Source of the DNA: a virus | IMG/VR virus record: IMGVR_UViG_3300027969_003137 | Coordinates: 23,519-87,518 of that record | Length of the DNA stretch: 64,000 nt | Direction: 5' to 3' (one strand) | Made by a program: the position numbers and the translations under genes | Part shown: positions 12,251-53,901 of the stretch, piece by piece | Numbering within the stretch: the first letter of the stretch is position 1 | How the letters are laid out: each line of letters begins with the position of its first letter | Notes under the pieces: model-generated | Seen by the model: only the letters and a program-made list of their open reading frames with translations | Database searches by the model: none | What the model was told of the DNA's origin: nothing

Positions 12251-12280
12251 ATGTACGCATAAATAATAATATGCGTACAT
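12251..12280 (+). repeat. perfect 10-bp inverted repeat around the kdsA start, with late box in the spacer
   Basis: ATGTACGCAT (12251-12260) and ATGCGTACAT (12271-12280) are exact reverse complements separated by 10 nt. The right arm contains the kdsA start codon. A CATAAATA late-type box (12258-12265) overlaps the left arm and spacer. The element could be an operator, or an mRNA hairpin if transcription starts upstream. Confidence 0.8.
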
Positions 12281-13104
12281 TTAACATTAACCAACTTACC
12301 ATCGGTAACAAACTACCCTTTGTTCTTATTGCTGGCCCGTGTCAAATAGAAAGTCAGGATCATGCCGAGGCAACCTGTGCCAGACTGATTGCTATTACAG
12401 CATTACTTGGTATTCCTCTGATATACAAAAGCAGTTTTGATAAAGCCAATCGTTCTAGTATTAGCACTAAACGAGGTGTCGGTATTACAGAAGGTCTTGA
12501 CATTCTCAATGCTATCAAGCATACTTTCGGAGTGCCTGTTTTAACAGATATTCACGAATCGTGGCAGGCAAAAGAATGTGCAGACGCTGGTATTGACATA
12601 TTACAAATCCCTGCATTCCTTTGCAGACAAACTGATTTATTATTAGCCGCTGGAGAAACCGGATGTGCTATCAATGTCAAGAAAGGGCAGTTTCTTGCTC
12701 CTCACGATATGAAGAACGTTGCTGCAAAGATTGCGTCAACTGGTAATGAACGTATTATGTTATGCGAAAGAGGATACACTCATGGATATAATAATCTTGT
12801 TGTTGATATGCGTAGTTTACCCATTATGGCAGGCACCGGGTATCCAGTGGTCTTTGATGCCACACATTCTGTTCAGCAGCCAGGGGGATTGGGCACAGTC
12901 TCCGGAGGGGATCGCACTATGGTCCCGTACCTCGCGAGGGCAGCAGTGGCCACCGGATGCGTAAGTGCTGTGTTCATGGAATGTCATGAAGATCCAGATA
13001 ACGCACCCAGCGACGGTCCTAACATGATCAAATTAGACGACCTCAGCGATATTTTAAAAGACCTAATAGCCATCGATGAAATTGTCAAAAGAAAATCTCA
13101 CTAA
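12271..13104 (+). CDS. kdsA: 3-deoxy-D-manno-octulosonate 8-phosphate synthase
   Basis: KdsA (277 residues) condenses arabinose 5-phosphate with phosphoenolpyruvate to KDO-8-phosphate for the LPS inner core. Alignment by eye with the bacterial enzyme is continuous: [63 protein letters not shown] and a DGP motif near the end. The N-terminal motif is AGPCQIES with Cys24, the mark of the metal-dependent class (the E. coli enzyme has Asn there). Length is normal. There is no Shine-Dalgarno; the late box ends 5 nt before the ATG. It overlaps the glycosyltransferase gene by 29 nt. Confidence 0.93.
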
Positions 13105-15521: not shown

Positions 15522-16082
15522 ATGGCACTACATTTCATCAAATACCTACACGAAGATACTGATACCAGAGAGATAGTTCAAAACAAGTTGAGTTTTGGCA
15601 AAGAAGAGCTTGATCCTGTTATGAGTAAAGCTACTCTAGACTATCACTTTTCTGGGCTAGCTGCCAAGTACGTTGAAAGATACAATGCAGGTGAAGGCGA
15701 TGCTAAGTTTAATTATGGCGGTGCAATGCTGCATAATTTTTACTTTGGAAATCTAACTCCTCCTAGGGCTGCTAATAAGCCCACGGAAATGTCGGGTAAA
15801 CTGATTAACGATGTCTATGGCAGCTTTGATGCATTTAAAGAAGCTGTTGAAAAAGAAGCTATGGCTATTCAAGGTTCAGGTTGGGTGTATATGGACGTTG
15901 CGGGTAAACTGCATACCATACACAATCACGAATATGCTAAAGGAATGAAAATTGCTCTGTTAATAGATTGGTGGGAACATGCATGGGCACTGGACTACCA
16001 ACAGGACAAGGCCAAATACCTTTCAAATATTTGGCGTATCATCGACTGGTCTGTCGTGAACGACCGCTTAATAGGAGAATAA
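15522..16082 (+). CDS. Fe/Mn superoxide dismutase-like protein
   Basis: The 186-residue protein fits the iron/manganese superoxide dismutase family, which converts superoxide to peroxide and oxygen. Metal ligands can be placed: His42 in LDYHFSG, His71 in AMLHNFYF, and Asp149/His153 in IDWWEHAW. GSGWVYM is the conserved segment before the last ligands, and Tyr50 matches the active-site Tyr34. Odd points: the paired histidines after the first ligand (His30/His31 in E. coli) are Leu and Ala here, and DVWEHAY has become DWWEHAW. Activity or metal preference may therefore differ. No Shine-Dalgarno; the late box is 4 nt before the ATG. Confidence 0.85.
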   Translation: MALHFIKYLHEDTDTREIVQNKLSFGKEELDPVMSKATLDYHFSGLAAKYVERYNAGEGDAKFNYGGAMLHNFYFGNLTPPRAANKPTEMSGKLINDVYGSFDAFKEAVEKEAMAIQGSGWVYMDVAGKLHTIHNHEYAKGMKIALLIDWWEHAWALDYQQDKAKYLSNIWRIIDWSVVNDRLIGE

Positions 16083-30143: not shown

Positions 30144-30686
30144 ATGACAATACAACCAATCAATATCGGCAATGCAGTCAACGACGGACTAGGTGATGAT
30201 CTTAGATCAGCCTTTCAAAAGGTAAATGCCAACTTTGCAGATCTAGCTGCCAGCATTACTGTGACCGCTAGTAATTTAGGCGGTGGTAGCGGAGTATTTA
30301 AAAATAAGGTCGGAGTTGATCTACAGTTTAAATCTCTAGTCGCTGGTACTAAAATGTTCATCAATGAACTAACCAACACTATTGTAATTAACAATCAACA
30401 GCCCGACGGCTTTGCTAGAATTGACACAGACCTTGGCATTGTTGAAGCTAGCAGTCATCTTAATATAACCCTTGAAGGTGGAGACAATGTCAACGTTTCT
30501 GCTGTTGGTTCTGTGATTACAGTAGACACCAATTTAGATCTAAATCAAATTATTGCAGGCTTTGACTTTGGAGTGTTGGGCAACAATTTTCAATTCTCCC
30601 CTCAGCTGGCCCTAGCAGCAGCTAATGTAGATTTTGGTACGATTACTAATCCAGGGACCATTAATTTAGACCTTGGTGCATTTTAA
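30144..30686 (+). CDS. short fibre / baseplate-associated protein
   Basis: The 180-residue protein shares the N-terminal motif NDGLGDDLRSAFQKVNANF with the two large fibre genes, followed by about 130 residues of beta-rich sequence without cysteines. It looks like an attachment module joined to one small beta domain, perhaps a connector for a longer fibre. It follows the protease and precedes the Ig-domain protein. Confidence 0.75.
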   Translation: MTIQPINIGNAVNDGLGDDLRSAFQKVNANFADLAASITVTASNLGGGSGVFKNKVGVDLQFKSLVAGTKMFINELTNTIVINNQQPDGFARIDTDLGIVEASSHLNITLEGGDNVNVSAVGSVITVDTNLDLNQIIAGFDFGVLGNNFQFSPQLALAAANVDFGTITNPGTINLDLGAF

Positions 30687-30698
30687 GGATATAGATTT

Positions 30699-33164
30699 GT
30701 GGCTATAACTTGGATCACTCCTGCAGGTAGCTTGGGAATACTAGTAGAAAGAAATACTTTAGAAATTCCCGTTCTTGCAACTTCAAACTCTGGATCTATT
30801 ACCTACAGCGTAATAGCCGGACGTCTACCACGAGGACTGAGATTATCTAACAATGTGATTAACGGCAGTCCTGTAGAAGTGAGACGATTTACAGAATATC
30901 GATTTGTCATACGTGCCAACGACGGAATAGATTTAGAAGATCGTACTTTTGGCCTGTCGGTTGACGGTAGCGATTTGCCCTATTGGTTGACTCAAGAGGG
31001 ATTTTTAAAAGTAGGAGAAAATAATGCTTACTTTGTGTTGGACAATGCCTATGTAGAATTTCAACTGGAAGCCGATGACACTGACATCAATGCCGGAGAC
31101 TCACTGGAATACTACCTAGTACCAGTTGGGGGGGAACTACCGCCGGGATTGTCATTAAGCAAAACCGGCGTAATATCTGGATTTACTGACCCAGTATTTG
31201 CTGTTGACTATTCAGAAACTCAAACCGGATCATACGATACTGCGGCCTTTGACATCCTGCCATTGGACAAGCCTGAAGCAAGATCCAACGGCTTTGACAG
31301 CTTTCTCTATGATAATGTGACCTTTGACTACAACGAACCCAGTCGTGCTCCAAGACGCCTAAGTAGATTTTATACGTTTATTGTTGCTGTTAGTGATGGC
31401 GTTAATGAGGTGCGCAGAGTATTTAGAATATATGTGGTCACCGAAGAATTCCTACAAGCTGACAACACCATAGTTCAAGTTGATACCAATCTGTTCCAGG
31501 CAGATGCCACAGGTGATCGTGTTCCGCTGTGGATTACAGAAAGCAATTTGGGTAGATTTAGAGCAGACAACTATGTCACTATATATCTAGATGTTTACGA
31601 TCCAGTTTCATTGTCGGGCACGATCACTTACTTTCTGTTAGCCACTAACCCCGACGGGTCACCTAGTGTTATTCCTCCAGGATTAATTCTAGATACTATA
31701 ACTGGAGAACTGGCTGGCAGGGTTCCTTATCAGGCCGCTATAACTAAGACCTATCAGTTTACCATGCAGGCTGTGAATTTTCCTACATCACTGGCCGATA
31801 TTAATTATACGTTGGTAGGTGATTGGAGTTCCACTAGAATTTATTTTGAAAACCAAGCTGTTAGATACTTAGGCTTTGTCTATATCTGTTTACAGGAACA
31901 CAGAAACGTGGTTCCAGTAGACGGACCTTATTGGAATTTAGGGGTTGCAACCTCTGAAAAAACATTTACTGTAGATATTATTGGAGAAATAGAAAGTGCT
32001 ATTCAATGGATTAGTTCTAATGATCTAGGTTCTATAAAACCTAATCAACCAAGCACAATAAATGTGCAGGCAGAAAGCCTGCTATACGGAAACAAAGTGA
32101 TATACGAATTACAATCAGGTCTGCTACCTCCGGGGTTGAGTTTGCTTTCTACAGGTATCATTCAAGGCAAGGTAAAACAATTTGCCGATAGTCAAGGTCC
32201 AGGACTAACTAGATTCTTTGACAGAGATTCATCTCTGGTAGACTCAACTGGTACTATAACATTTAATACCACGTTTGATAACAATACTACTAGTTTTGGT
32301 AAACAATTTACATTTAAAATAAAAGCCAGAGATACTGCGAAATTTGCAGAAACTATCAAAGAATTTTTTATTAATGTTATTTCAAGTACAGAAAAAACCT
32401 TTGCAAATTTATATCTAAAAGCATTCCAGACCAAAGACAAAAGATTAAATTGGTATAATTTCATTACCGATTCTAACATTTTTAGAGCAACTGATATCTA
32501 TAGATACGGCGATTCGAACTTTGGAATTCAAACTGAATTAAGAGTGTTGGTATTTGCCGGTATCGAAAGTGTTGGTGCAGTAAGCTATGTTCAGGCCATG
32601 AGTCAGAACCACTATAGAAAGAATTTAAAATTTGGAAATGTTAAATACGCAGTGGCTAAGGATCTGCTAACTCAAGACCCTTTATATGAAGTAATATATG
32701 TAGATGTTGTTGACGAATTTGAAAAAAACGGTAATAGTATCAGTGGTACTGTAAATTTATCTAATAACATTAACAGCAAGATTTTGGTTAGTTATGATGC
32801 TATTAAAGTAGACAGCAATATTCCATTTGCCAGTGATAGTGACCACCAGCGCATATTTCCTAACAGTATCAAGAACATGCGTAGAAGAATTCGAGGAGTA
32901 GGCGAAAGAGATCGAGAATTTTTGCCTTTGTGGATGCGTAGTATCCAAACAGATAGCTTTGTAGAAACAGGTTATGTGAAAGCCTTGATACTGTGCTATC
33001 TACAACCAGGGCAGTCCGAAAGAGTGATTTCTAGAATAAAATCCAGTGGATTTGACTTTAAATCAATCGATTTTACTGCCGATCGATATGTGATAGATAT
33101 TTTAGACGGAGAAATAGAGGATAAATACCTTGCATTCCCGCAACGTGGAGAAAAATTACCGTGA
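30699..33164 (+). CDS. large virion protein with putative Ig (He_PIG-like) domains
   Basis: The protein has 821 residues and starts with GTG at 30699 after AAGGA. The motif PPGLSL..(T)GVI.G recurs (GELPPGLSLSKTGVISG, GLLPPGLSLLSTGIIQG, and the variants RLPRGLRLSNNVING and PPGLILDTITGELAG), the hallmark of bacterial Ig-like He_PIG repeats. The C-terminal 250 residues are different, charged and aromatic, ending YLAFPQRGEKLP. Such proteins occur in T4-like baseplates and fibres. It overlaps the next gene by 4 nt (GTGA). Confidence 0.8.
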   Translation: MAITWITPAGSLGILVERNTLEIPVLATSNSGSITYSVIAGRLPRGLRLSNNVINGSPVEVRRFTEYRFVIRANDGIDLEDRTFGLSVDGSDLPYWLTQEGFLKVGENNAYFVLDNAYVEFQLEADDTDINAGDSLEYYLVPVGGELPPGLSLSKTGVISGFTDPVFAVDYSETQTGSYDTAAFDILPLDKPEARSNGFDSFLYDNVTFDYNEPSRAPRRLSRFYTFIVAVSDGVNEVRRVFRIYVVTEEFLQADNTIVQVDTNLFQADATGDRVPLWITESNLGRFRADNYVTIYLDVYDPVSLSGTITYFLLATNPDGSPSVIPPGLILDTITGELAGRVPYQAAITKTYQFTMQAVNFPTSLADINYTLVGDWSSTRIYFENQAVRYLGFVYICLQEHRNVVPVDGPYWNLGVATSEKTFTVDIIGEIESAIQWISSNDLGSIKPNQPSTINVQAESLLYGNKVIYELQSGLLPPGLSLLSTGIIQGKVKQFADSQGPGLTRFFDRDSSLVDSTGTITFNTTFDNNTTSFGKQFTFKIKARDTAKFAETIKEFFINVISSTEKTFANLYLKAFQTKDKRLNWYNFITDSNIFRATDIYRYGDSNFGIQTELRVLVFAGIESVGAVSYVQAMSQNHYRKNLKFGNVKYAVAKDLLTQDPLYEVIYVDVVDEFEKNGNSISGTVNLSNNINSKILVSYDAIKVDSNIPFASDSDHQRIFPNSIKNMRRRIRGVGERDREFLPLWMRSIQTDSFVETGYVKALILCYLQPGQSERVISRIKSSGFDFKSIDFTADRYVIDILDGEIEDKYLAFPQRGEKLP

Positions 33165-41653: not shown

Positions 41654-42376
41654 ATGAAAACACAACTACTATTAGAGTTTGCCAACATAGCGCAAACTAC
41701 CTACGACAATCCTAAAGACTCTAAAGCTAAGTTTAAAGCACTGGGCTATACCATTGTTCAATTCTTTGACATCGATGGCGCACAGGCATACCTGTTAACT
41801 AATGGCACAATAACAGTATTGTCCTTTAGAGGTACCGAAGTGACACAGAAGTCAGATGTATTGGCAGACTTAAAAGCCGGTAAGAATATTGAAGCCTGTG
41901 GTGGCAAGGTACACGTTGGCTTCAAAGGTGAGATAAACAAACTATGGCCCAGTATCTCTAAAGCGTTAACAGACAATCCAGGTAATATATATGTAACTGG
42001 ACACAGTCTTGGTGCTGCCATGGCAACTATTGCTGCTAGTCGTATGCAGGATCGTGTAACGGCATTGGTAACATTTGGTTCACCGAGAGTGGGCAATAAA
42101 GAGTTTGTTGACAGTGTGTTTGTTGACCATTATAGAGTACAGAACAACTGCGATGATGTGACCAAAGTTCCTTTTATGTTGATGGGATTTACACACCACG
42201 GAACACACAAGTATATGAACTTCAATGGTGAGTTTAGAGACTTGACTCCTTGGCAACAGGTAAAAGACATGGTCCGTAGCAGATTGCGAGCCAGAGCCAA
42301 GGGTCAAAAGTATATTGGCGTTTTTGATCACATGATGGCAAACTATATTTCCAAGTTAGAGAAGTTAGGAATGTAA
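41654..42376 (+). CDS. class 3 lipase / phospholipase-like hydrolase
   Basis: This 240-residue alpha/beta-hydrolase starts at the ATG at 41654; a TTG four codons upstream is in frame. The nucleophile elbow is GHSLGAAM with Ser118, the oxyanion motif is SFRGTE (57-62), and candidates for the remaining triad are Asp in NNCDDVTKVP and His in GVFDHMMANY. There is no signal peptide. Being between DUF4337 and the holin, it may attack host membrane lipids at lysis. Such a lipase is not part of the standard T4 lysis set. Confidence 0.8.
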   Translation: MKTQLLLEFANIAQTTYDNPKDSKAKFKALGYTIVQFFDIDGAQAYLLTNGTITVLSFRGTEVTQKSDVLADLKAGKNIEACGGKVHVGFKGEINKLWPSISKALTDNPGNIYVTGHSLGAAMATIAASRMQDRVTALVTFGSPRVGNKEFVDSVFVDHYRVQNNCDDVTKVPFMLMGFTHHGTHKYMNFNGEFRDLTPWQQVKDMVRSRLRARAKGQKYIGVFDHMMANYISKLEKLGM

Positions 42377-44105: not shown

Positions 44106-44598
44106 ATTAGGACCCTATAACAGCCTATCGCAAACAAGCACTGAATGGCTATTTGATACGTCCGAGTCAATTGCTCAGGCTCGAGAGCTTGAAGATGCTA
44201 TGATAAATTTTATGGTGGCAAATAAAGGCATTGGACTTGCTGCCAATCAGATCGGTATAACTAAACGTGTGTTTACCATGGGCAGCAACAATATTGAAGG
44301 ATTCCCCTTTCCCTTTGCTGCATTTAATCCTAAAATTATAAGTGCCGGCTCTGAAGAAGATTTAACTGAAGAAGGATGCCTAAGCTATCCTGACCTATGG
44401 TTAAAAGTTAAAAGACCTACAAACATTGTTGCAGAATATCAAGACTGTGACAGTAATACACATACCGTTGAGATGTCTGGCTTAATTGCTAGATGTTTTC
44501 AACATGAATTAGATCATCTAAATGGTGTGTGTTTTGTTGACAAAGTATCACCTATGAGATTACAATTAGCTATGAAGAAGTTAAGGAAAAGGAAATAA
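44095..44598 (+). CDS. def: peptide deformylase
   Basis: The 167-residue protein removes the N-terminal formyl group from nascent proteins. The three motifs are intact: GIGLAANQ (45-52), EEGCLS with Cys95, and QHELDH with His137, Glu138 and His141, which bind the metal. Size matches bacterial and phage enzymes. It lies between dnaJ and clpA with overlaps on both sides. Aquatic phages often encode such an enzyme. Confidence 0.95.
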
Positions 44599-46934
44599 TG
44601 ATCGAACCGAGCCAAAATTTACAACAGATTTTTGATAATGCTGTGTCAGTTGCTAAAGACATGCAACATGAATACATCACAATCGAACATCTTGTTTACA
44701 GTATCATGTGTGATCAAGAATCATACCAAATCATAGAAAACTATGGTGCTGATGCTAATTTTATTAAAACAAATCTAGATCATTATATAAAAAATAATCT
44801 TAAAGAAATTATTGTTAATGAAACAGACCATAAACCTAAAAAGACCAGTTCTGTAGAACGTGTACTGAATCGCTGCTTTACTCAAGTGCTGTTTAGCGGG
44901 CGGCAAAAGATGGAAGTTGCTGATATTATTATCAGCGTACTCAGCGAGAAAAATAGTTTTAGTTTTTACTTTTTAACAAAAGGTGGACTAACCAAAGACA
45001 AATTTGTTAAATACTTCCAAGAAAATATCGTTATTGATGAAGAAGACCATCCACCAATGCAGGTAACCAATAATAATCAGATGGAAAGAATCATTAATCA
45101 ATTCTGTACTAATCTTAGCCTACAGGCTAAACAACGTAAAATAGATCCCGTTATTGGGCGGGAAGAGGAACTTGAAAATATTCAATTGATTCTAGCTCGG
45201 CGTAGTAAGTGTAATGTCCTGATGGTTGGAGAACCGGGTGTAGGTAAAACTGCTATTGCAGAGGGACTTGCACGTAAAATCTTTGAAAAGAAAGTTCCTA
45301 AGTTTATTCAAGACCATCAAGTCTATACACTAGATATCAGTGCCCTACTTGCAGGTTCTAAGTATCGTGGTGACTTTGAAGAACGCATCAAAGCTGTATT
45401 AGCAGCATTAGAAAAGAAAGGCAAGATCATATTGTTTATTGATGAAGCACATATGATGCAAGGCGCTGGCGCTGCTAATAACAGCAGCAACGATATGGCC
45501 AATATGTTAAAGCCTATTCTTACCAAAGGTATTATTAAATTAATTGCATCAACTACTTGGGAAGAATATCGCAAGCACTTTGAAAAGGATCGTGCGCTCA
45601 TGCGTCGATTCCAACGTGTCACTATCGATGAGCCTACACCAGAGTTAAGTGTTAAGATTGTTAAGGGTATTAGAAAATACTACGAGCGGCATCACAATGT
45701 TAAAATTACAGATGCTGCTATTGATCAAGCCGTAAAGCTGTCTGTTAAATATATGGCAGACAAGAAGTTGCCCGATAAGGCCATTGACATTATCGACTGT
45801 GCCGCAGCACGTTATAAATTAAAAGACGATCCAGAAATGGAAGGAGTTGAACAACTAGTCGATGTTGAACAAATTACCTATGAACTTTCTAAGATGATCA
45901 ATATGCCTTTAGAAATGGTAGCACAAAAAGAAAGTAAAAATCTAGCAGAACTAGAAAGCGGAATGAAGTCTGCTGTTTACGGTCAAGATGGCGCAGTAGA
46001 TACATTACTAGATAAAATCTTTGTAGCACAAGCAGGTATGAAACAGCCTAATAAACCTATTGGCAGCTTCTTGTTCCTTGGCCCTACTGGCTGCGGCAAA
46101 ACAGAAACAGCAAAACAGCTTTCTGAAAAAATGTCAATGCCGTTAATACGATTCGATATGAGCGAATATCAAGAAAAGCACAGTGTTGCTAGATTAATTG
46201 GCGCTCCTCCGGGCTACGTGGGTTATGAAGATAATGCGGGGCAACTAATTACTAAACTACAAGAAATGCCTAATTGTATCTTGTTGCTAGACGAAATTGA
46301 AAAAGCTCATCCAGATGTTTCAAATATTTTGTTAGGCTTTATGGACAACGGGTTTGTGACTGGATCTAACGGCAAACAAGCAGACGGCCGCAATTGTATT
46401 CTTGTTATGACTTCAAATCTAGGTGCTAGGGACAATGAGAATAACACCATTGGCTTTGGTGATTTAGATAAAGACGGAGAGGATGATAAAGCACTTAAAA
46501 AGTTCTTTGCTCCTGAATTCCGCAATCGATTAGATGCTGTTATCAAATTCTCTAAACTTTCACAATCTGTTGTATCACAAATTGTTAAAAAGTTTATTGC
46601 TGAATTAAACAGTCAGTTGAAAGATAAGAATATCGAAATTACTCTAAATGCAGATGCAATAAATTGGTTATCCAATAACGGTTTCGATAAAAAGATGGGT
46701 GCTAGGCCGTTGGCTCGATTGATTGATAACAAGATTAAATCGCCATTAAGTCGTAAAGTGCTGTTTGGTGAATTGCAAAACGGCGGTAATATTGCAGTTT
46801 CAGTTGTTAACGGAGATTTAAATTTTGATATCGGGCCGTTTCTAACTAAGGAACAAAAACGGGCAATTAAACGAGGAACACCAACTGAGGTAGTACAAGA
46901 TGTATCAGAAAATACAGAAAACCAAGACAACTAA
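44598..46934 (+). CDS. clpA: ClpA-type AAA+ unfoldase
   Basis: The 778-residue protein has an N-terminal Clp_N-like domain (1-150) and two AAA+ modules. Module 1 has Walker A GEPGVGKT and Walker B ILFIDEAH; module 2 has GPTGCGKTE and LLLDEIEKAHPD. There is no long middle domain, so it is ClpA-type rather than ClpB. In module 2 the loop NENNTIGFGDL puts Ile618-Gly619-Phe620 where E. coli ClpA has its IGL ClpP-docking tripeptide. No clpP is in the window; the host ClpP is the likely partner. The last 35 nt overlap the next gene. Confidence 0.93.
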   Translation: MIEPSQNLQQIFDNAVSVAKDMQHEYITIEHLVYSIMCDQESYQIIENYGADANFIKTNLDHYIKNNLKEIIVNETDHKPKKTSSVERVLNRCFTQVLFSGRQKMEVADIIISVLSEKNSFSFYFLTKGGLTKDKFVKYFQENIVIDEEDHPPMQVTNNNQMERIINQFCTNLSLQAKQRKIDPVIGREEELENIQLILARRSKCNVLMVGEPGVGKTAIAEGLARKIFEKKVPKFIQDHQVYTLDISALLAGSKYRGDFEERIKAVLAALEKKGKIILFIDEAHMMQGAGAANNSSNDMANMLKPILTKGIIKLIASTTWEEYRKHFEKDRALMRRFQRVTIDEPTPELSVKIVKGIRKYYERHHNVKITDAAIDQAVKLSVKYMADKKLPDKAIDIIDCAAARYKLKDDPEMEGVEQLVDVEQITYELSKMINMPLEMVAQKESKNLAELESGMKSAVYGQDGAVDTLLDKIFVAQAGMKQPNKPIGSFLFLGPTGCGKTETAKQLSEKMSMPLIRFDMSEYQEKHSVARLIGAPPGYVGYEDNAGQLITKLQEMPNCILLLDEIEKAHPDVSNILLGFMDNGFVTGSNGKQADGRNCILVMTSNLGARDNENNTIGFGDLDKDGEDDKALKKFFAPEFRNRLDAVIKFSKLSQSVVSQIVKKFIAELNSQLKDKNIEITLNADAINWLSNNGFDKKMGARPLARLIDNKIKSPLSRKVLFGELQNGGNIAVSVVNGDLNFDIGPFLTKEQKRAIKRGTPTEVVQDVSENTENQDN

Positions 46935-47993: not shown

Positions 47994-48332
47994 ATGCTAT
48001 TGAAAGAAATGTTTAGCCCTATGGGCGCACCAAAAGACGAACAGCCTGACATAGATTGGATCGGCGATCTCAAATTCTATATGGATAATAACGATCAAAT
48101 GCTGAACAAGCATTTTTTCCCTGCGGTTAAACGCCATAAAGAGCATCGTGGCAACCCTAATGCTTACAAAATTTACGTTCGTTCACTAGAAGGCTGCTTA
48201 GAAAGCTATTGCGAAAAGTACGAAGTTGAAGATTACAAAGAAAAGTTCCCTAAAGAAAAACTAGAGGAGTTGGCTAAACAAATAGTCACACAACAAGAAA
48301 AGTTTATGGAAAGAGGCGACTACGATAAATGA
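47994..48332 (+). CDS. small acidic protein with capsid-targeting-like N-terminus
   Basis: The 112-residue protein begins LLKEMFSPMG, a variant of the M-x-x-x-E-hydrophobic-hydrophobic start shared by the following genes. The rest is charged and helical with one PDIDWIGDLKFYM block. It is first in the cassette of candidate head-internal proteins. Its end overlaps the next gene (ATGA). Function unknown. Confidence 0.6.
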   Translation: MLLKEMFSPMGAPKDEQPDIDWIGDLKFYMDNNDQMLNKHFFPAVKRHKEHRGNPNAYKIYVRSLEGCLESYCEKYEVEDYKEKFPKEKLEELAKQIVTQQEKFMERGDYDK

Positions 48333-49222
48333 AGCTTCTAGAATTATTTGAGCAATCGGGAAAAACTGCTGCCGTAGCGTTTGGTAGAATGAACCCACCT
48401 ACGATCGGTCACCAGAAGGTAGTCGAAGCTATCCTAAAACAAAAAGCAGATGCTCATTTTTTATTTGTTTCTCAAACTCATAAGGCAACTGGCAAAAATC
48501 AAACAAGATTAGAAAACCCACTACCCTTTGATATCAAACTGGGATTTATCCAGCAGGCATTTCCTAATATCGATATCGGAGATACATCTGTAAGCACAGC
48601 CATAGGTATTCTTCAGTATTTAGAAAAACAGGGCTTTGAGAATGTGGTCTTTGTATGCGGCTCGGACCGTGTGCCAAGTTTTACAGAATTGTTCAATAAA
48701 CAAAACGGGGTTGATTATAATCTCAAATCAATTAAGATTGTATCAAGCGGTGCTAGGGATCCCGATGCAGAAGGTGCCGAAGGCATGAGCGCAAGCAAAA
48801 TGCGAGCTGCTGCAATTGCTGGTGACATCGACACATTTAAAACAGGATTACCAGCAGGACTAAGTGGTGATGCTGAGGAAGTATTTTCTGCAGTTAGGCA
48901 AGGACTTGAGCCTTGGTTAAAACAAGAAACTGTGCCCGAAGGATGGAAAAGTAAAGTTGCTGGTGCTACATTAGCAGGAGCCGCTGCACTAGGTAGTGGC
49001 GGTGTGTATGCTCAAAGTTCAGGAGAAGATTATCTTCCAGACATAGTTGCACATGTGACATTTGAGGTTAACGGAAAAGAAATATCCAAAGACATCAATT
49101 TAGGAACACAATACAAGTCTCCAAAAGAGGCTTCCCAAGCCCTTGAAAAATTCTTAAAGTCTAAGGGTATTAAATTTTATGATTTTAGTCTTGAACGTGT
49201 AAAACCCAAAGACGATAATTAA
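48329..49222 (+). CDS. nucleotidyltransferase with capsid-targeting-like N-terminus
   Basis: The 297-residue protein has a cytidylyltransferase-like core: AVAFGRMNPPTIGHQKVVEA carries the nucleotide-binding motif (TIGH, about residues 26-29), and VCGSDRV and SSGARDPDAEGAEGMSASKMR resemble the later loops of this superfamily (NMN- and phosphopantetheine-adenylyltransferases). The product is unknown. The start MKLLELFEQ looks like the T4 Alt capsid-targeting sequence. The C-terminal 90 residues contain a hydrophobic GWKSKVAGATLAGAAALGSG stretch shared with the next gene. Confidence 0.7.
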   Translation: MKLLELFEQSGKTAAVAFGRMNPPTIGHQKVVEAILKQKADAHFLFVSQTHKATGKNQTRLENPLPFDIKLGFIQQAFPNIDIGDTSVSTAIGILQYLEKQGFENVVFVCGSDRVPSFTELFNKQNGVDYNLKSIKIVSSGARDPDAEGAEGMSASKMRAAAIAGDIDTFKTGLPAGLSGDAEEVFSAVRQGLEPWLKQETVPEGWKSKVAGATLAGAAALGSGGVYAQSSGEDYLPDIVAHVTFEVNGKEISKDINLGTQYKSPKEASQALEKFLKSKGIKFYDFSLERVKPKDDN

Positions 49223-49248
49223 TTAAAACGGGTAATAAAGGGATAATC

Positions 49249-50247
49249 ATGAAAGCAAAAGAATTTATTATAGAACTTAAAAAAGAATCAAAGCCTAGAA
49301 ACTTTGTAGCCAAGAACGCCAAGATGGGCGGTGCTGGCCAGCACAAGGATAAAAAGAAAGCTGAAAAACAAGGTGATGTCAAACACAAGAATAAAGAGTA
49401 CGCAGAAAGTGTAGAGGAAGGCTGGAAAGATAAGGTTGCAGCCGCAGGACTTGCTGGTGCAATGGCATTCGGAGCTGGTGGGGCTCATGCTAGAGTTTCT
49501 GGAGATCAAGATCCTAGTATCAATCGATTAACCGGCAAACCTATTGCAACGCAACAAGCAACCGATGTTGCTCCTGCAAAAGCAGAAGCACCTAAAGGAT
49601 TTAGTAAAGAGTATCTACAGTCTGTAGTAGACGGTAAGCATCCAAGACCAATGGTTAGTGTTGAAAAAGCAAAAGAGCTATTGAAGAATATGTCAGAAGG
49701 CTCATTAAAAGAATTGTCTACTGAAAAGCTAGCACAATATAAAAAGGCAGCCTATGCGGATGCCAAACAGTCAGATGCAGACGGAAAGTACGCTCGTGGC
49801 GACAAACGGTTTAGTGGCATTAATAAAGCTACTAGCAAACAGTTTGACAACGATCTTAAGAAACATAGACAGCAAGGTGTGGCGGAGGCCGGTATGTACA
49901 CCAAGCCAGGTAGTCCGTCTGCCTACGATAGAGACTATCGTGCTAGCGTAAGTGGCATGGGTAAGAAAGACTCGTTAGCATATCAACAAGATGGCGGTGC
50001 TAACGACGAATATCCTAGTGAACCTAATCGTCCGTACCAAGCACCTCAAGACAGGCCAGTACTAAAAGGTTATTATTTCTACAATGTACAGCCTGGACAG
50101 GAAGATGATGCTGGAATGTACGGTGTCAAGAAAACTAAGTCAGGCAAGTGGGCAAAAGCCAAGTATTCAACTAGCGGCCGATCATTTGATATGCAGAAAG
50201 ATGGCGCTGATAAAGCATTTGGTGCAGGTAAATGGTGGTCTCTATAA
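49249..50247 (+). CDS. head-internal-type protein
   Basis: The 332-residue protein starts MKAKEFIIELKKE, close to the capsid-targeting sequence of T4 internal proteins. Residues about 57-80 (GWKDKVAAAGLAGAMAFGAG) are hydrophobic and shared with the previous gene. The rest is charged and low in complexity, with QQGVAEAG, a possible gp21-type protease site, and YDRDYRASVSGMG, a phage-typical segment. No enzyme motif. Overlaps the next gene by 1 nt (TAATG). Confidence 0.6.
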   Translation: MKAKEFIIELKKESKPRNFVAKNAKMGGAGQHKDKKKAEKQGDVKHKNKEYAESVEEGWKDKVAAAGLAGAMAFGAGGAHARVSGDQDPSINRLTGKPIATQQATDVAPAKAEAPKGFSKEYLQSVVDGKHPRPMVSVEKAKELLKNMSEGSLKELSTEKLAQYKKAAYADAKQSDADGKYARGDKRFSGINKATSKQFDNDLKKHRQQGVAEAGMYTKPGSPSAYDRDYRASVSGMGKKDSLAYQQDGGANDEYPSEPNRPYQAPQDRPVLKGYYFYNVQPGQEDDAGMYGVKKTKSGKWAKAKYSTSGRSFDMQKDGADKAFGAGKWWSL

Positions 50248-50453
50248 TGGACGAACTTGCTGATATCAAGCGTCTAGCAGGCATTACTGAGTTCAAAGGT
50301 CTACAGCCATACGGCGGCAGCAATATCAGTATTACAGGTATGACCAATCAAGAACTTGAACGCAAGCATGATATTAGACCCGGTTCACCGGAATGGTTTC
50401 AGTTATGGTTTTCAAAACCATATCTAACAGGCGAAAAAAAGGTAGGAAAATAA
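50247..50453 (+). CDS. small conserved protein
   Basis: The 68-residue protein starts at the ATG at 50247 in the TAATG overlap; the frame extends 5 codons upstream but that start is not needed. MDELADIKRLAGI and PEWFQLWFSKPYLTGE are its ordered parts. Function unknown. It is followed by the A-type Fe-S carrier gene. Confidence 0.6.
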   Translation: MDELADIKRLAGITEFKGLQPYGGSNISITGMTNQELERKHDIRPGSPEWFQLWFSKPYLTGEKKVGK

Positions 50454-50780
50454 ATGGTTGAGATAACAGAATCAGCAAAATTAAAGATTATAGATCTGCT
50501 GCTAGAAGAAAATAATCCTAAGCTGGCATTGCGCACCTTTGTACAAGGCGGCGGATGCAGTGGCTTTAGCTATGGCTTTACCTTTGATGAAGAAAAGAAC
50601 GAAGACGATTTTGAATTTCCCATCAACGAACAGTACAACGTATTTGTCGATGCGATGAGTATGCAATACTTGCAAGGTGCAGTTATTGATTATAAAGAAG
50701 AAGCAATGGGCAGTCAGTTTGTCATTAGCAACCCTAATGCCCAATCAACTTGCGGATGCGGGAGCAGTTTTTCAGTATGA
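50454..50780 (+). CDS. A-type iron-sulfur carrier (ErpA/HesB-like)
   Basis: The 108-residue protein is a second A-type carrier. The cysteines are in [11 protein letters not shown] and [11 protein letters not shown], the spacing of ErpA/IscA. It differs clearly from the IscA at 16910, so it was probably acquired separately or diverged long ago. It carries and delivers Fe-S clusters. It starts right after the previous stop and overlaps a 25-codon ORF. Confidence 0.9.
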
Positions 50781-50854
50781 ACCCCAACCAGTATCCAGTG
50801 TATCCAGAAGACGATGGCCACGATCGTTATAGAAATCCCTATTCACCAGTGTGA
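50777..50854 (+). CDS. 25-residue micro-ORF
   Basis: An ATGA overlap with the Fe-S carrier stop opens a 25-codon frame rich in Pro, Tyr, Asp and Arg ([18 protein letters not shown] at its start). It has no other support than its coupled start. It may be a short translated peptide or chance. Confidence 0.35.
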
Positions 50855-50863
50855 GATTATATT

Positions 50864-51484
50864 ATGAAGATAACAGAAATTTTAATCGAAGGTGTAGCAG
50901 GGCCAAAGAACTGCTGGCCTGGTCATAGAAAAGTTGGCACACAACCTGGCACGGGCAAGAATAAAGGCAAGCGTGTCAACGACTGCGAAAAGATTAAAGA
51001 AGCAGGTTCACCAGCACAGCAGGCAGCTATTGCTATTGCCAAAAAGAAAAAGCAAGGTGTGACGGAAGGCTTACACCAAGAATTTGACATGATTGAAAAC
51101 ATCATTGAACAGATTGCAGAGCAACATGCCGTTGACGTTGACCTTGTATGGGAAGATTTATCAACCCTTACAGATGATGAGCTATATGTGTTTGCAGTAA
51201 CATCAGAGATGGTCAACGAAGATTGGCAAAAGGCCAACAAGCGAGACAAGACTGACGGTATGAGCAAGAAAGCTGTCAATGCCTATCGTAGAGAAAATCC
51301 AGGGTCAAAATTAAAGACTGCGGTGACAACTAAGCCCGGCAAATTAAAGAAAGGTTCAAAGGCCAGCAAGCGCCGATCAAGCTATTGTTCTAGATCAGCC
51401 GGACAACAGAAAATGCATAATATCAGCTGTTCAAAAACTCCTGACAAGGCAATATGTAAAGCAAGGCGTCGTTGGAACTGCTGA
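50864..51484 (+). CDS. head-internal-type protein with DUF5872-like C-terminus
   Basis: The 206-residue protein starts MKITEILIEGVAGPKN, a capsid-targeting-like sequence. The middle has QGVTEGLHQEF, a candidate cleavage site. The C-terminal 60 residues are very basic with four cysteines (RRSSYCSRSAGQQKMHN, CKARRRWNC), a small domain found in phage and large-virus proteins (DUF5872-like). Probably DNA-bound inside the head; function unknown. Confidence 0.6.
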   Translation: MKITEILIEGVAGPKNCWPGHRKVGTQPGTGKNKGKRVNDCEKIKEAGSPAQQAAIAIAKKKKQGVTEGLHQEFDMIENIIEQIAEQHAVDVDLVWEDLSTLTDDELYVFAVTSEMVNEDWQKANKRDKTDGMSKKAVNAYRRENPGSKLKTAVTTKPGKLKKGSKASKRRSSYCSRSAGQQKMHNISCSKTPDKAICKARRRWNC

Positions 51485-51485
51485 T

Positions 51486-52208
51486 ATGAGAGCGCAAGAG
51501 TTTGTAGTCGAAAAGAAAAAACGTAAGCGTAGACCTCGGTATGCTGCCTACGGTCCGGGCCCTTACGGCGGCTACGGATACTATGCTGGCTACAGCGGAG
51601 ACAGTGGATCCGAAGGTGGCGGCGACGGGGGTGGCGGTGGCGAAAGTATAAATCATGAAGCCTCATACCCTGGCAACATCGGCATGATGGAGTTGGCCAA
51701 GTTTTTTAGTATGGCCGATGAAGAACAAAAAACCATGTTCAAGCAACTGCTAGAGAAAGGCAAGAAGGGCTTGGCTTGGAAACTGGTACAAGACATTGTG
51801 GGTGTTAAACTACAGGGGTCAGAATTCAATGAAGATGCCATGATGGGAAAAATTGAAGACGGCGGAAAAATTGTTCGCATATTAAAAAAACAACACAGCG
51901 TACCGTTTAGCGATGAAAAAAACTGGCTGTTGATTGATACTGATCCTGCCAAAGGCAACAAAGGTCTTGGACTTAAATGGGTTCCGGCAAGTACTAGATT
52001 TACCTGGGTACGTCCTTACAAAGAAACCGTGGATGAAAACTTTGCTGATGGTAAGAATCCGCAGGACAAAGGCGATTCAAAACGTCATGGCATTAATACT
52101 AAAGGATCAGTGAGTAGTCTACGAAAAACTGCCAAACAGGGCGGACGCAAAGGACAACTAGCACACTGGCTGGCCAACATGAAAGCTGGAAGGGCTAAAA
52201 AGAAATGA
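51486..52208 (+). CDS. head-internal-type protein with Gly/Tyr-rich segment
   Basis: The 240-residue protein starts MRAQEFVVEKKKRKRR, nearly the same as the T4 internal-protein start MKTYQEFIAE. A Gly/Tyr-rich segment (YGGYGYYAGYSGDSG) follows, then a helical domain and a basic end (SVSSLRKTAKQGG, LAHWLANMKAGRAKKK) found in many phage proteins. Overlaps the next gene (ATGA). Function unknown; packaging with DNA is likely. Confidence 0.65.
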   Translation: MRAQEFVVEKKKRKRRPRYAAYGPGPYGGYGYYAGYSGDSGSEGGGDGGGGGESINHEASYPGNIGMMELAKFFSMADEEQKTMFKQLLEKGKKGLAWKLVQDIVGVKLQGSEFNEDAMMGKIEDGGKIVRILKKQHSVPFSDEKNWLLIDTDPAKGNKGLGLKWVPASTRFTWVRPYKETVDENFADGKNPQDKGDSKRHGINTKGSVSSLRKTAKQGGRKGQLAHWLANMKAGRAKKK

Positions 52209-52360
52209 GAGCTCACGAATTTATTTCTGAAAAACGCAAGATTCCCTTTGCGGGAGCAAAAGTTGGGCACAAAGAAGGCCCAGCAGGGCAGTGGCGCAAC
52301 AAAGGTCCCAAGGCAAATAAGCCCGCTAAACAGGGCGACCTAGTAGGCGGCGCTACTTAA
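52205..52360 (+). CDS. 51-residue head-internal-type peptide
   Basis: A short ORF in ATGA overlap with the previous gene. It starts MRAHEFISEKRKIPF, a clear capsid-targeting-like sequence with SE before the basic part, and continues as a Gly/Lys-rich peptide to the TAA at 52358. The length and sequence match the small internal proteins of T4 type. Followed by a late box. Confidence 0.65.
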   Translation: MRAHEFISEKRKIPFAGAKVGHKEGPAGQWRNKGPKANKPAKQGDLVGGAT

Positions 52361-52361
52361 C

Positions 52362-52369
52362 TATAAATA
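52362..52369 (+). promoter_or_regulatory. late promoter box TATAAATA (perfect), 5 nt before a start codon
   Basis: An exact T4 late consensus box. It ends 5 nt before the ATG at 52375, and no Shine-Dalgarno is visible upstream of that start. Confidence 0.75.
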
Positions 52370-52374
52370 ATAGT

Positions 52375-52551
52375 ATGAAACTAAAAGAATTGTTCGAGAC
52401 AGCGTCAGGTATGGGTGCAGGAGATGTTGCTACCTTTATTAAGAACGGTTCTGGAGCGGGCGTGGGTACTCTTTTTGGGGGTAGTTATCAGCAGAAATCT
52501 GCCAAAAAACCCAAGGCAAAGAAGCCTCGCGAAAGTATATTAAGAAGATAA
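52375..52551 (+). CDS. 58-residue head-internal-type peptide
   Basis: A short ORF that starts MKLKELFETASG, matching the T4 Alt-type capsid-targeting sequence (ELITELFDE). It is Gly-rich in the middle and ends very basic (KSAKKPKAKKPRESILRR). The late box 5 nt before its ATG supports late expression. The stop codon overlaps the next late box. Confidence 0.65.
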   Translation: MKLKELFETASGMGAGDVATFIKNGSGAGVGTLFGGSYQQKSAKKPKAKKPRESILRR

Positions 52552-52863: not shown

Positions 52864-53901
52864 ATGGATTTTAAATCAATCATCAGCAAACTAGACAGCA
52901 TGGAAGCACCTCCACAGACTCCTGCTGCTCCTAAATTGGATAAAGCTGTTCAACTAAACGAAGATGCACAATTGCGTGTACTAAGTGGTCGTTCTACATA
53001 CGTTGCAGAAGCCAAGAAAAAGGCCGAAGAAGATGTCAAAGAAGAAATGAAAGTTGGCGACAAAAAGGCTAGTTCTACAGGTGGCACTATTGAAAAGACA
53101 GCTACTGGTATCAAGCACACAGCTGGCAAGAACTATGGTGGCGATAAGGCTCCTAAAGATGACGACAGTGATGACGAGCCAAAAGCTAAGAAAGCCAAAA
53201 AAGAAAGCATTGAGCCACAATTCAAATCTAAGTTCATGAAGATGGTGGAAGCGGCTAAAGAAGAAAGCGAAGCTGATGCCAAGAAGAAAAAAGAAGACAA
53301 GAAAAAGAAAATGGCCAAGATCATGGACGAAGGTGCTAAGCCAGACTTTCTAGACATGGACAAAGACGGTGACAAGAAAGAGCCAATGAAAAAAGCTGCC
53401 GGTGACAAAGGCGGAGACAAGAAAGACGGCAAGAAAGGTATGAGTGCTGCTCAAGCCAAGTACTTTGGTAAGAAAGAATCAGTTGAAGAAGCTGCTGAAA
53501 TGAAAACTGGTGATAAGAAAAAGTCTTCCACAGGCGGCACAATTGAAAAAACTGCCACTGGTGTCAAGCATACAGCTGGTAAGAACTATAGCGGCAAGGC
53601 AGCAGAAGCTGACAAAAAGAAAACTGACGAAAGCAAGATGATGCCAAAAGGCAAGAAGCGTCCTGTTAAAGAATCAATTGAAAACATTTTATCATTCAAA
53701 GACATGATCAAACTTGTGCAAGAGAGTGGTGGACAACAACAAATTGATGCAGTTGATCAAGAATTGTTTTCTTGGGCTCAACGTGTTGCCAAACAAAAAA
53801 TTGGTGAAGGCCTAAAAGCCGATGTGTATGCAGGTATGGTATATGAGCGTATGGGTGGCGTATTCGAAATGTACGATGTACTAAGCGAAGACCAAAAGTA
53901 A
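52864..53901 (+). CDS. Lys/Glu-rich scaffold or head-core-like protein with internal duplication
   Basis: The 345-residue protein starts at the ATG at 52864; the open frame upstream overlaps the previous gene. It is extremely rich in Lys, Glu and Ala. A 32-residue unit (GDKKASSTGGTIEKTATGIK and continuing) occurs twice, encoded at 53047-53142 and 53500-53595. FLDMDKDGDKKEP resembles an EF-hand calcium loop. The last 85 residues form an ordered helical domain (IDAVDQELFSWAQRVAKQKI). A prohead core or internal protein fits this composition. A terminator follows. Confidence 0.65.
   Translation: MDFKSIISKLDSMEAPPQTPAAPKLDKAVQLNEDAQLRVLSGRSTYVAEAKKKAEEDVKEEMKVGDKKASSTGGTIEKTATGIKHTAGKNYGGDKAPKDDDSDDEPKAKKAKKESIEPQFKSKFMKMVEAAKEESEADAKKKKEDKKKKMAKIMDEGAKPDFLDMDKDGDKKEPMKKAAGDKGGDKKDGKKGMSAAQAKYFGKKESVEEAAEMKTGDKKKSSTGGTIEKTATGVKHTAGKNYSGKAAEADKKKTDESKMMPKGKKRPVKESIENILSFKDMIKLVQESGGQQQIDAVDQELFSWAQRVAKQKIGEGLKADVYAGMVYERMGGVFEMYDVLSEDQK

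Follow-up and report, generated by a model that had tools for sequence, protein, structure and literature searches.

The window analysed here is a stretch of 64,000 nucleotides, bases 23519-87518 of the 87,518-base virus record IMGVR_UViG_3300027969_003137. The record has a T4-like character: inspection of its open reading frames (ORFs) by eye picked out a clamp loader, a DNA polymerase and a sliding clamp. Between a ClpA/B-type gene (44598-46934) and the polymerase lies a block of nine genes at 47994-52551, and six of their products begin with a short tag that closes on glutamate (Glu). The products of the block are very probably internal proteins of a T4-like phage head, which the tag would target to the prohead core, a gp21-type protease would cleave after the tag Glu, and the virion would deliver with its DNA. 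This reading is well supported by the sequence and by the published virion proteomics of relatives, from which we infer that this phage packages, cuts and delivers the proteins. Genes were called with a simple caller of our own, and some starts may be off; the start of 52375 was assigned by hand.

The tag pattern, ^M[KRQE].{3,4}[FIL][FIVLT].?E, was derived from the tags of the window and the T4 signals and is therefore partly circular. A preliminary description of this DNA had proposed a search for the tag in the other genes of the phage; only one of the 101 other called genes of the record matches, against six of the nine in the cluster (Fisher p 2.7e-7), and this lone match (41654-42376, MKTQLLLEF) appears to be accidental. 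When residues 2-14 of the nine cluster proteins were shuffled 400 times, the matches averaged 0.17 with a maximum of 2, compared with 6 observed. Across 80 related loci, 1288 genes were called and 119 match, whereas shuffles average 10.1 and reach at most 23; part of these matches (MEHFVRIVMEK-like) are apparently false. Within single genomes the counts are weak against shuffles: 5/250 in T4 (shuffled mean 1.6, maximum 6), 4/177 in the near relative G001 (maximum 4), 4/202 in S-CREM2 (maximum 4) and 1/88 in partial S-SCSM1 (maximum 3). The window tags end in LFE, IIE, LIE, VVE, ISE and LFE; five fit [L/I]xE and one has V.

The seven N-termini quoted in the preliminary description are all present in their places. 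Its statement that the genes are consecutive does not hold, since the run is broken by two non-matching genes, at 50232-50453 and 50454-50780. The common start that it saw is shared by six cluster genes; the seventh sequence, MLLKEMF (47994), lacks the closing Glu. The T4 starts that it gave are present in the T4 record, where IPII and IPIII begin MKTYQEFIAE and Alt begins MELITELFDE. The pattern fits these three and misses IPI (MKTFKEFTS). That unrelated bodies share one start is borne out on a larger scale: in loci gathered by similarity, 544 of 3612 called genes are tagged, and their bodies fall into 69 families. Loci with L numbers are such relatives, and are thus mutually related and enriched in cargo genes.

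Published mass spectrometry places tagged homologs in virions. The cytidylyltransferase/NMNAT homologous to 48329 bears the tag and was detected in the virions of S-CREM2, S-SCSM1 and S-SZBM1. For S-CREM2, 52 virion proteins are listed (PMC10665884 Table 3), and all four of its tag-matching genes, among 202 called, are on that list (p 0.004). These are ORF13 (78 amino acids), ORF14 (an APH/ChoK-like kinase), ORF136 (which adjoins the terminase) and ORF154 (the cytidylyltransferase). The Cas9-like virion protein ORF12 of the same phage has an offset version of the tag, LRFASFMAE, followed by AAV. In the part of S-SCSM1 that was read (88 coding sequences, 28 marked as virion proteins), the sole tag match is the virion NMNAT, and seven of the nine products of ORFs 89-97, around it, are virion proteins. 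Segments of the bodies recur as well. The S-SCSM1 virion protein ORF92 has a segment in common with window 52864-53901, and window 50864 ends in a DUF6321 domain that is almost the same as the one ending the S-CREM2 virion protein ORF137; DUF6321 also occurs in the S-SCSM1 virion protein ORF29 and in one S-SZBM1 gene. A passage of PMC3037559 reports a cytidylyltransferase in S-SM1 virions too. The S-CREM2 authors allow, in part of their text, that such enzymes are carry-over; the common tag speaks against this. Comparison of the sequences with these proteomes indicates that the tag predicts virion proteins.

Table 1. Features of the tagged block and its flank; positions refer to the window.
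Feature	Position	Strand	Evidence
112-amino-acid protein, start MLLKEMFSP	47994..48332	+	Tag-like start without closing Glu; 13/13 relative N-termini likewise
Nucleotidyltransferase (cytidylyltransferase/NMNAT-like) with second small C-terminal domain	48329..49222	+	PHROG, Foldseek, cyanophage virion homologs
Tag MKLLELFE of 48329	48329..48352	+	Glu 8 in 38/41 distinct ortholog N-termini, Glu 9 in 3
Signal-peptide-like segment GWKSKVAGATLAGAAALGSGGVYA behind VPE204	48941..49012	+	Within low-confidence model region 199-235
Small C-terminal domain (QSSGEDYLPDIVAHV...)	49013..49219	+	In relatives behind GW-type or Tat-type segments; residues 238-294 modelled confidently
Mosaic protein, tag MKAKEFIIE, putative internal sites SVEE57, MSE150, QQGVAE213	49249..50247	+	Relatives align piecewise, ends near these sites
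Signal-peptide-like segment GWKDKVAAAGLAGAMAFGAGGAHA behind VEE57	49420..49491	+	GW-type
Small protein without standard tag, conserved start DIKRLAGITE	50232..50453	+	
Protein with tag MKITEILIE, CWPG module, KKQGVTE68, C-terminal DUF6321	50864..51484	+	PF19846 above cut-off
Protein with tag MRAQEFVVE, Gly/Tyr-rich body, VDE184 then NFADG module	51486..52208	+	
NFADG module	52038..52205	+	Preceding Glu in 115/115 distinct copies, 63/63 unrelated contexts
51-amino-acid basic protein, tag MRAHEFISE	52205..52360	+	
58-amino-acid protein, tag MKLKELFE	52375..52551	+	Relatives: MKIKELLE then TATAGATSAG (capsid-arm copy)
Lys-rich protein without standard tag	52864..53901	+	Segment in common with S-SCSM1 virion protein ORF92

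The tag can be followed among the orthologs of the nucleotidyltransferase 48329. In the 80 loci found with this protein, 51 sequences align from residue 1 and give 41 distinct N-termini, with Glu at position 8 in 38 and at position 9 in the other three. Position 3 is mostly Leu, 39 of the 41 have Leu or Ile at position 6, and positions 9-11 are variable. Glu 8 is invariant in a 19-ortholog alignment, yet nearly all of those sequences were chosen from tag-matching loci, a selection that does not enter the count of 41. The form M[KR]AxEF[IV]xE occurs in the fetched loci as 53 protein forms and 88 DNA forms, and synonymous positions change freely. Judged by these substitutions, the tag is kept at the protein level.

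Similar sites stand at joints inside the proteins. The product of 49249-50247 matches its relatives piecewise, and the ends of the matches cluster at residues 51-58, near 150 and at 207-214, close to SVEE57, MSE150 and QQGVAE213. The NFADG module, of which there are 115 distinct copies, follows directly after Glu in every copy. With related contexts removed, Glu precedes it in 63 of 63 and P3 is aliphatic in 47 of 63, against a background of 21% (p 3e-19). This Glu is possibly part of the module itself; the independent sign is that P3 tends to be aliphatic even where the upstream sequences are unrelated. NFADG copies are found directly after an N-terminal tag (MRAHEFILE, MRISELFE, MKVSEILE) or within long proteins. 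GW-type segments have Glu in 22 of 24 contexts and an aliphatic P3 in 18 of 22, against 20% (p 8e-10); a loose GW pattern, with unrelated matches counted in, has Glu in 31 of 46. DUF6321 shows a preceding Glu and an aliphatic P3 in 21 of 21, many of its upstream stretches being related to each other. Long strings also occur, such as the module-QGVAE-module-QGMAE-module arrangement of L195. The motif QG[VI][AT]E is present twice in the cluster and nowhere else in the record, too few to count alone. The sequence statistics thus indicate that [ILVMF]xE joints precede modules inside cargo proteins, for NFADG and GW-type segments far above background.

The capsid protein itself links the tag to a predicted maturation site. 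T4 gp23 is cleaved after GSFLTE, before AEIGG. The near relative G001 encodes a gp21-type protease (PF03420) and gp23, and in its gp23 TRKYLSE is followed by SATAGATSAGNVATLN and RRVMP, which parallels GSFLTE, AEIGG and RRAIP of T4. Each of the 80 lineage capsid proteins that were fetched has LxE before a TAGATSAG-type arm (71 with the exact pattern, 9 slightly changed after Glu). Small tagged proteins have this arm stretch directly after the tag Glu, as in MKIKELLE-TATAGATSAG and MKIREILE-SATAGATSAG. Because the capsid protein and the small tagged proteins have the same stretch after Glu, the tag Glu occupies the place of the maturation Glu. According to passages of PMC9026906, T4 gp21 cleaves after [L/I]xE and ten residues of IPIII are enough for targeting. 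T4 Alt is cleaved after its first Glu, ITE-6, and not after E10 (in a passage of PMC5694885), and tags such as MKITE or MKLLE may therefore be cut after E5.

Copies of the arm are found in small cargo proteins of four of the five genomes examined. Within each genome, the protein most similar to the mature gp23 arm is the virion protein ORF160 in S-CREM2 (score 95, next 40), the virion protein ORF97 among the 88 coding sequences of S-SCSM1 (83, next 39) and 33133 in G001 (58, next 37). In T4, the best match of gp61.1 (tag MKTFKEFIKE, annotated as hypothetical) among the called proteins is gp23 (82, next 49). No arm copy was found in S-SZBM1, where the best score is 38 with no outlier. The copies are lineage-specific, with scores of 77, 95, 83 and 58 against their own arm and at most 32 against others, except that the two cyanophages match each other (72 and 88). 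The match of window 52375 to G001 gp23 is not significant (z 1.5; 9% of shuffles equally good). At a guess, arm-copy proteins might dock on the inner capsid wall.

Among the ten window proteins covered by Pfam and PHROG scans, 48329 matches PHROG cytidyltransferase families, with PF01467 under its cut-off. An AlphaFold model built on the 19-sequence alignment has a mean predicted local distance difference test (pLDDT) score of 78 and two domains predicted with confidence, spanning roughly residues 12-198 and 238-294. The best Foldseek matches, to the first domain, are nicotinic acid mononucleotide (NaMN) and phosphopantetheine adenylyltransferases. The pLDDT falls below 50 only at residues 1-7, 199-235 and 295-297, and in the model these stretches fit exposed cut sites. 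Homologs of this protein match in 535 phage records, 378 of them across at least 80% of the query. A published guess, in a passage of PMC9602691, is that the enzyme raises NAD levels in the new host.

Both GW-type segments of the window, at 48941-49012 and 49420-49491, resemble signal peptides, and relatives provide a natural swap at such a position. L479 and L472 are nearly identical on both sides of the junction (140/150 residues upstream, 64/70 downstream); L472 reads VEE then GWKSKIAGAALAGAAALGGGGAYAQSS, whereas L479 reads VEE then DISRRSFLRGAGALATGAALGATGANAQTS, a twin-arginine (Tat) signal. L164 shows the same swap relative to the window protein (167/190 identical before the junction, 44/65 after). 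L479 is the only segment above the cut-off of Pfam TAT_signal (24.4 against 22.7 bits); L026, L051 and L300 fall under it, and L166 and L164 have no match to it at E <= 0.01. Eight segments passed a Tat pattern filter, six of them in cargo-type proteins; those in L397 and L451, beside head genes, are apparently wrong-frame readings. Each of the six lies 2-3 residues past a Glu, five at [LV]xE. The domains behind GW-type or Tat-type segments are GH19 (L003, L017, L166, G001), LysM (L017) and an M48 peptidase (L300), and a periplasmic location would make sense for them. The signal-peptidase motif [AV]xA was also tried: it lies 17-34 residues past the junction in 23 of 30 GW-type segments, and composition shuffles reach a mean of 19.6 and a maximum of 27. 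Since it does not exceed composition, the motif proves nothing alone, and it is the Tat swap that carries the argument for export.

We tentatively propose, as a possibility that we hold at somewhat below even, that the prohead protease unmasks these hidden Sec-like or Tat signals, that the pieces, once injected, reach the new host's periplasm by export, and that the arm copies perhaps dock on the capsid wall. In the producing cell the signal peptide would be internal and silent. A cut just upstream of it inside the prohead would make a working signal peptide of the new N-terminus. After injection, the GH19/LysM cell-wall proteins, the M48 peptidase and the small domain behind the window nucleotidyltransferase would be exported to the periplasm. 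Alternatively, the signal-like segments may be fused relics of exported proteins. If the proposal is true, the head protease is a sorting switch besides being a maturation enzyme.

For the block as a whole, the following course of events is envisaged. The cargo proteins would be made late, as we assume, and the 8-9-residue tag M[KR]xxE[FIL][FIVL](x)E would tether each of them to the prohead core before the shell closes. A gp21-type protease would then cleave after the tag Glu and at the internal [ILVMF]xE joints, leaving the body in the maturing head. With the same type of site before internal modules, one polypeptide would yield several head-resident pieces. DNA would be packaged around the pieces, which would leave with it into the next host.

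Several observations weigh against this course. In S-SZBM1 only one of two tag matches among 176 called genes appears in the table of 30 detected proteins; the match outside it is MKSFKSFLSESV. Neither gp21 nor gp23 was found in the 87,518-base fragment of the window's phage. The 47994 family lacks the tag Glu in all 13 distinct N-termini of the called gene set, so MLLKEMF would not belong with the cut tags. In the 49249 family, 5 of 11 N-terminal forms retain an MKAKEF-type start without Glu; in T4, mutation of the cut residue can block processing yet permit targeting, according to part of PMC9026906. Among those of 29 other loci that could be read, the distant nucleotidyltransferase homologs L062, L063, L074 and L081 carry the enzyme domain with no tag ahead of it, and L052 and L056 start MRANEL without a closing Glu; the existence of untagged homologs makes the tag an addition outside the enzyme fold. 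The CWPG module shows no Glu preference immediately upstream, so not all modules begin at a site. Finally, [ILVM]xE[GANSDT] is just 1.5 times commoner in the cluster (12/1369 residues) than elsewhere in the record (140/24529). The prohead-targeting, gp21-cut tag of the preliminary description is supported by the sequence and the relatives' proteomics and does not extend to the 47994 family. Its cut after Glu agrees with the retention of Glu 8/9 and with the capsid-arm stretch behind the tag Glu, and does not fit the five 49249-family forms that lack Glu.

Injection is what we infer rather than observe, since part of the bodies may be core proteins destined to be chopped up. It is conceivable, though unlikely, that the tagged proteins are prohead-core filler like T4 gp22, gp67 and gp68, targeted and cut but mostly cleared, and not injected effectors. 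Passages of PMC9026906 and PMC5694885 describe T4 core proteins as reduced to short fragments that mostly exit, and many of the modules here are short and basic and stand in strings with many sites. Filler of this kind would not explain why enzyme domains (nucleotidyltransferase, NT5C, GNAT, GH19, LysM, M48) are retained in such proteins, nor why the cyanophage homologs remain in finished virions.

A role in targeting or cutting would be absent altogether if the common start and the xxE joints were recombination linkers or relics of common descent. The proteins are clearly mosaic and the tags lie at module borders; we nevertheless consider this improbable, as P3 is aliphatic beside wholly different upstream sequences, synonymous codons vary while the protein pattern stays, the capsid protein's own site precedes the same arm, and tagged homologs are in virions. 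Chance or start-codon composition as the source of the likeness is more improbable still, to the point of being scarcely credible. The loose pattern does match about 0.3 to 0.8% of shuffled starts, and the T4 and G001 counts do not rise above the largest shuffle; the excess over shuffling in the cluster and in the 80 loci, together with the within-record contrast, argues against it.

Other candidate signals were noticed. Tag-like C-terminal ends occur in virion proteins (RTFKEFLEYIE in S-SCSM1 ORF93, at L112 29627-29836, and KTFRDFLN in S-CREM2 ORF12), and C-terminal targeting of ORF93 and ORF12 is possible from these sequences. Small proteins starting xxLKRLAGIxE (window 50232-50453, G001 30560-30769) account for a further motif, which lies near the N-terminus in 24 of its 28 matches among called proteins; the C-terminus of G001 gp22, IRKLAGLKV, resembles these starts. 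By its sequence, the LKRLAGI-type motif is perhaps a second core-binding signal. The untagged gene at 50454-50780 within the block encodes an iron-sulphur carrier (Fe-S_biosyn, PF01521), and a similar gene lies at the equivalent place in G001 (30766-31092). The late promoter motif TATAAATA is uninformative: 4.8 copies would be expected in the window and 2 occur, one of them some 13 bases upstream of 52375. Elsewhere, a TctA-type transporter gene (PF01970, 286 bits) in a phage record was noted under L001 17845-19308, in the same record to the left of the window, and L002 320-1375. The gene after the transporter has a signal-peptide-like start and no Pfam match. The window also contains a DAHP-synthetase-family gene (12271-13104) and an iron/manganese superoxide dismutase gene (15522-16082), both in the phage.

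The system resembles T4 IPI, IPII, IPIII and Alt, in which, according to part of PMC9026906, a short N-terminal peptide with a hydrophobic pair, then Glu, and an [L/I]xE-type site is carried by unrelated bodies. It differs from the T4 capsid targeting sequences in that the tags have 8-9 residues rather than 10-19, often without Ala after Glu, and in that the same type of site also precedes modules within proteins. Pfam and PHROG scans of ten window proteins gave no Alt or IP family, and by these scans the bodies are unrelated to those of T4. The virion cytidylyltransferase/NMNAT of T4-like cyanophages is another parallel, being a homologous enzyme with an N-terminal tag and a virion location; the window enzyme differs in having a second domain behind a GW-type segment. 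In the parts of the cyanophage papers drawn on here, this enzyme is called a virion-associated regulator or possible carry-over and no targeting signal is named.

Polyvalent proteins (Iyer et al. 2017, PMC5512222) are similar in combining several unlike domains per polypeptide, including peptidoglycan-cutting ones, and in being predicted to be packaged and injected, as described in part of that paper. Multi-domain relatives here combine NT5C with GH19 (L003), GNAT with GH19 (L166), M48 with DUF6321 (L300) and LysM with GH19 (L017), and window 48329 has two modelled domains. Processing by zincin-like peptidases was proposed in a passage of that work, whereas the joints here are of the prohead-protease type, some before putative export signals; the term signal peptide is absent from its text. 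None of the ten window proteins matched a peptidase family in Pfam, and the relative L300 has an M48 domain. In the giant phages phiKZ and SPN3US, head proteins that are ejected are cleaved after xxE by a gp21-type protease (part of PMC5694885); their propeptides are mostly longer, and the same part of the source describes no module strings or hidden export signals. A search of the open-licence literature, mainly by listing, found no paper in which the virion enzymes of cyanophages are connected with capsid targeting sequences, gp61.1 with the capsid arm, or head cargo with hidden signal peptides.

With the tag and the xxE joints, many hypothetical genes of T4-like water phages would become a readable list of packaged proteins and their pieces. 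The tag offers a reason for the recurrent NMNAT-like enzyme in cyanophage virions. The proposed signals would also make it testable whether phage proteins are delivered to a chosen compartment, beyond mere entry into the cell, and the capsid-arm copies, including T4 gp61.1, carry part of this question into the best-studied phage.

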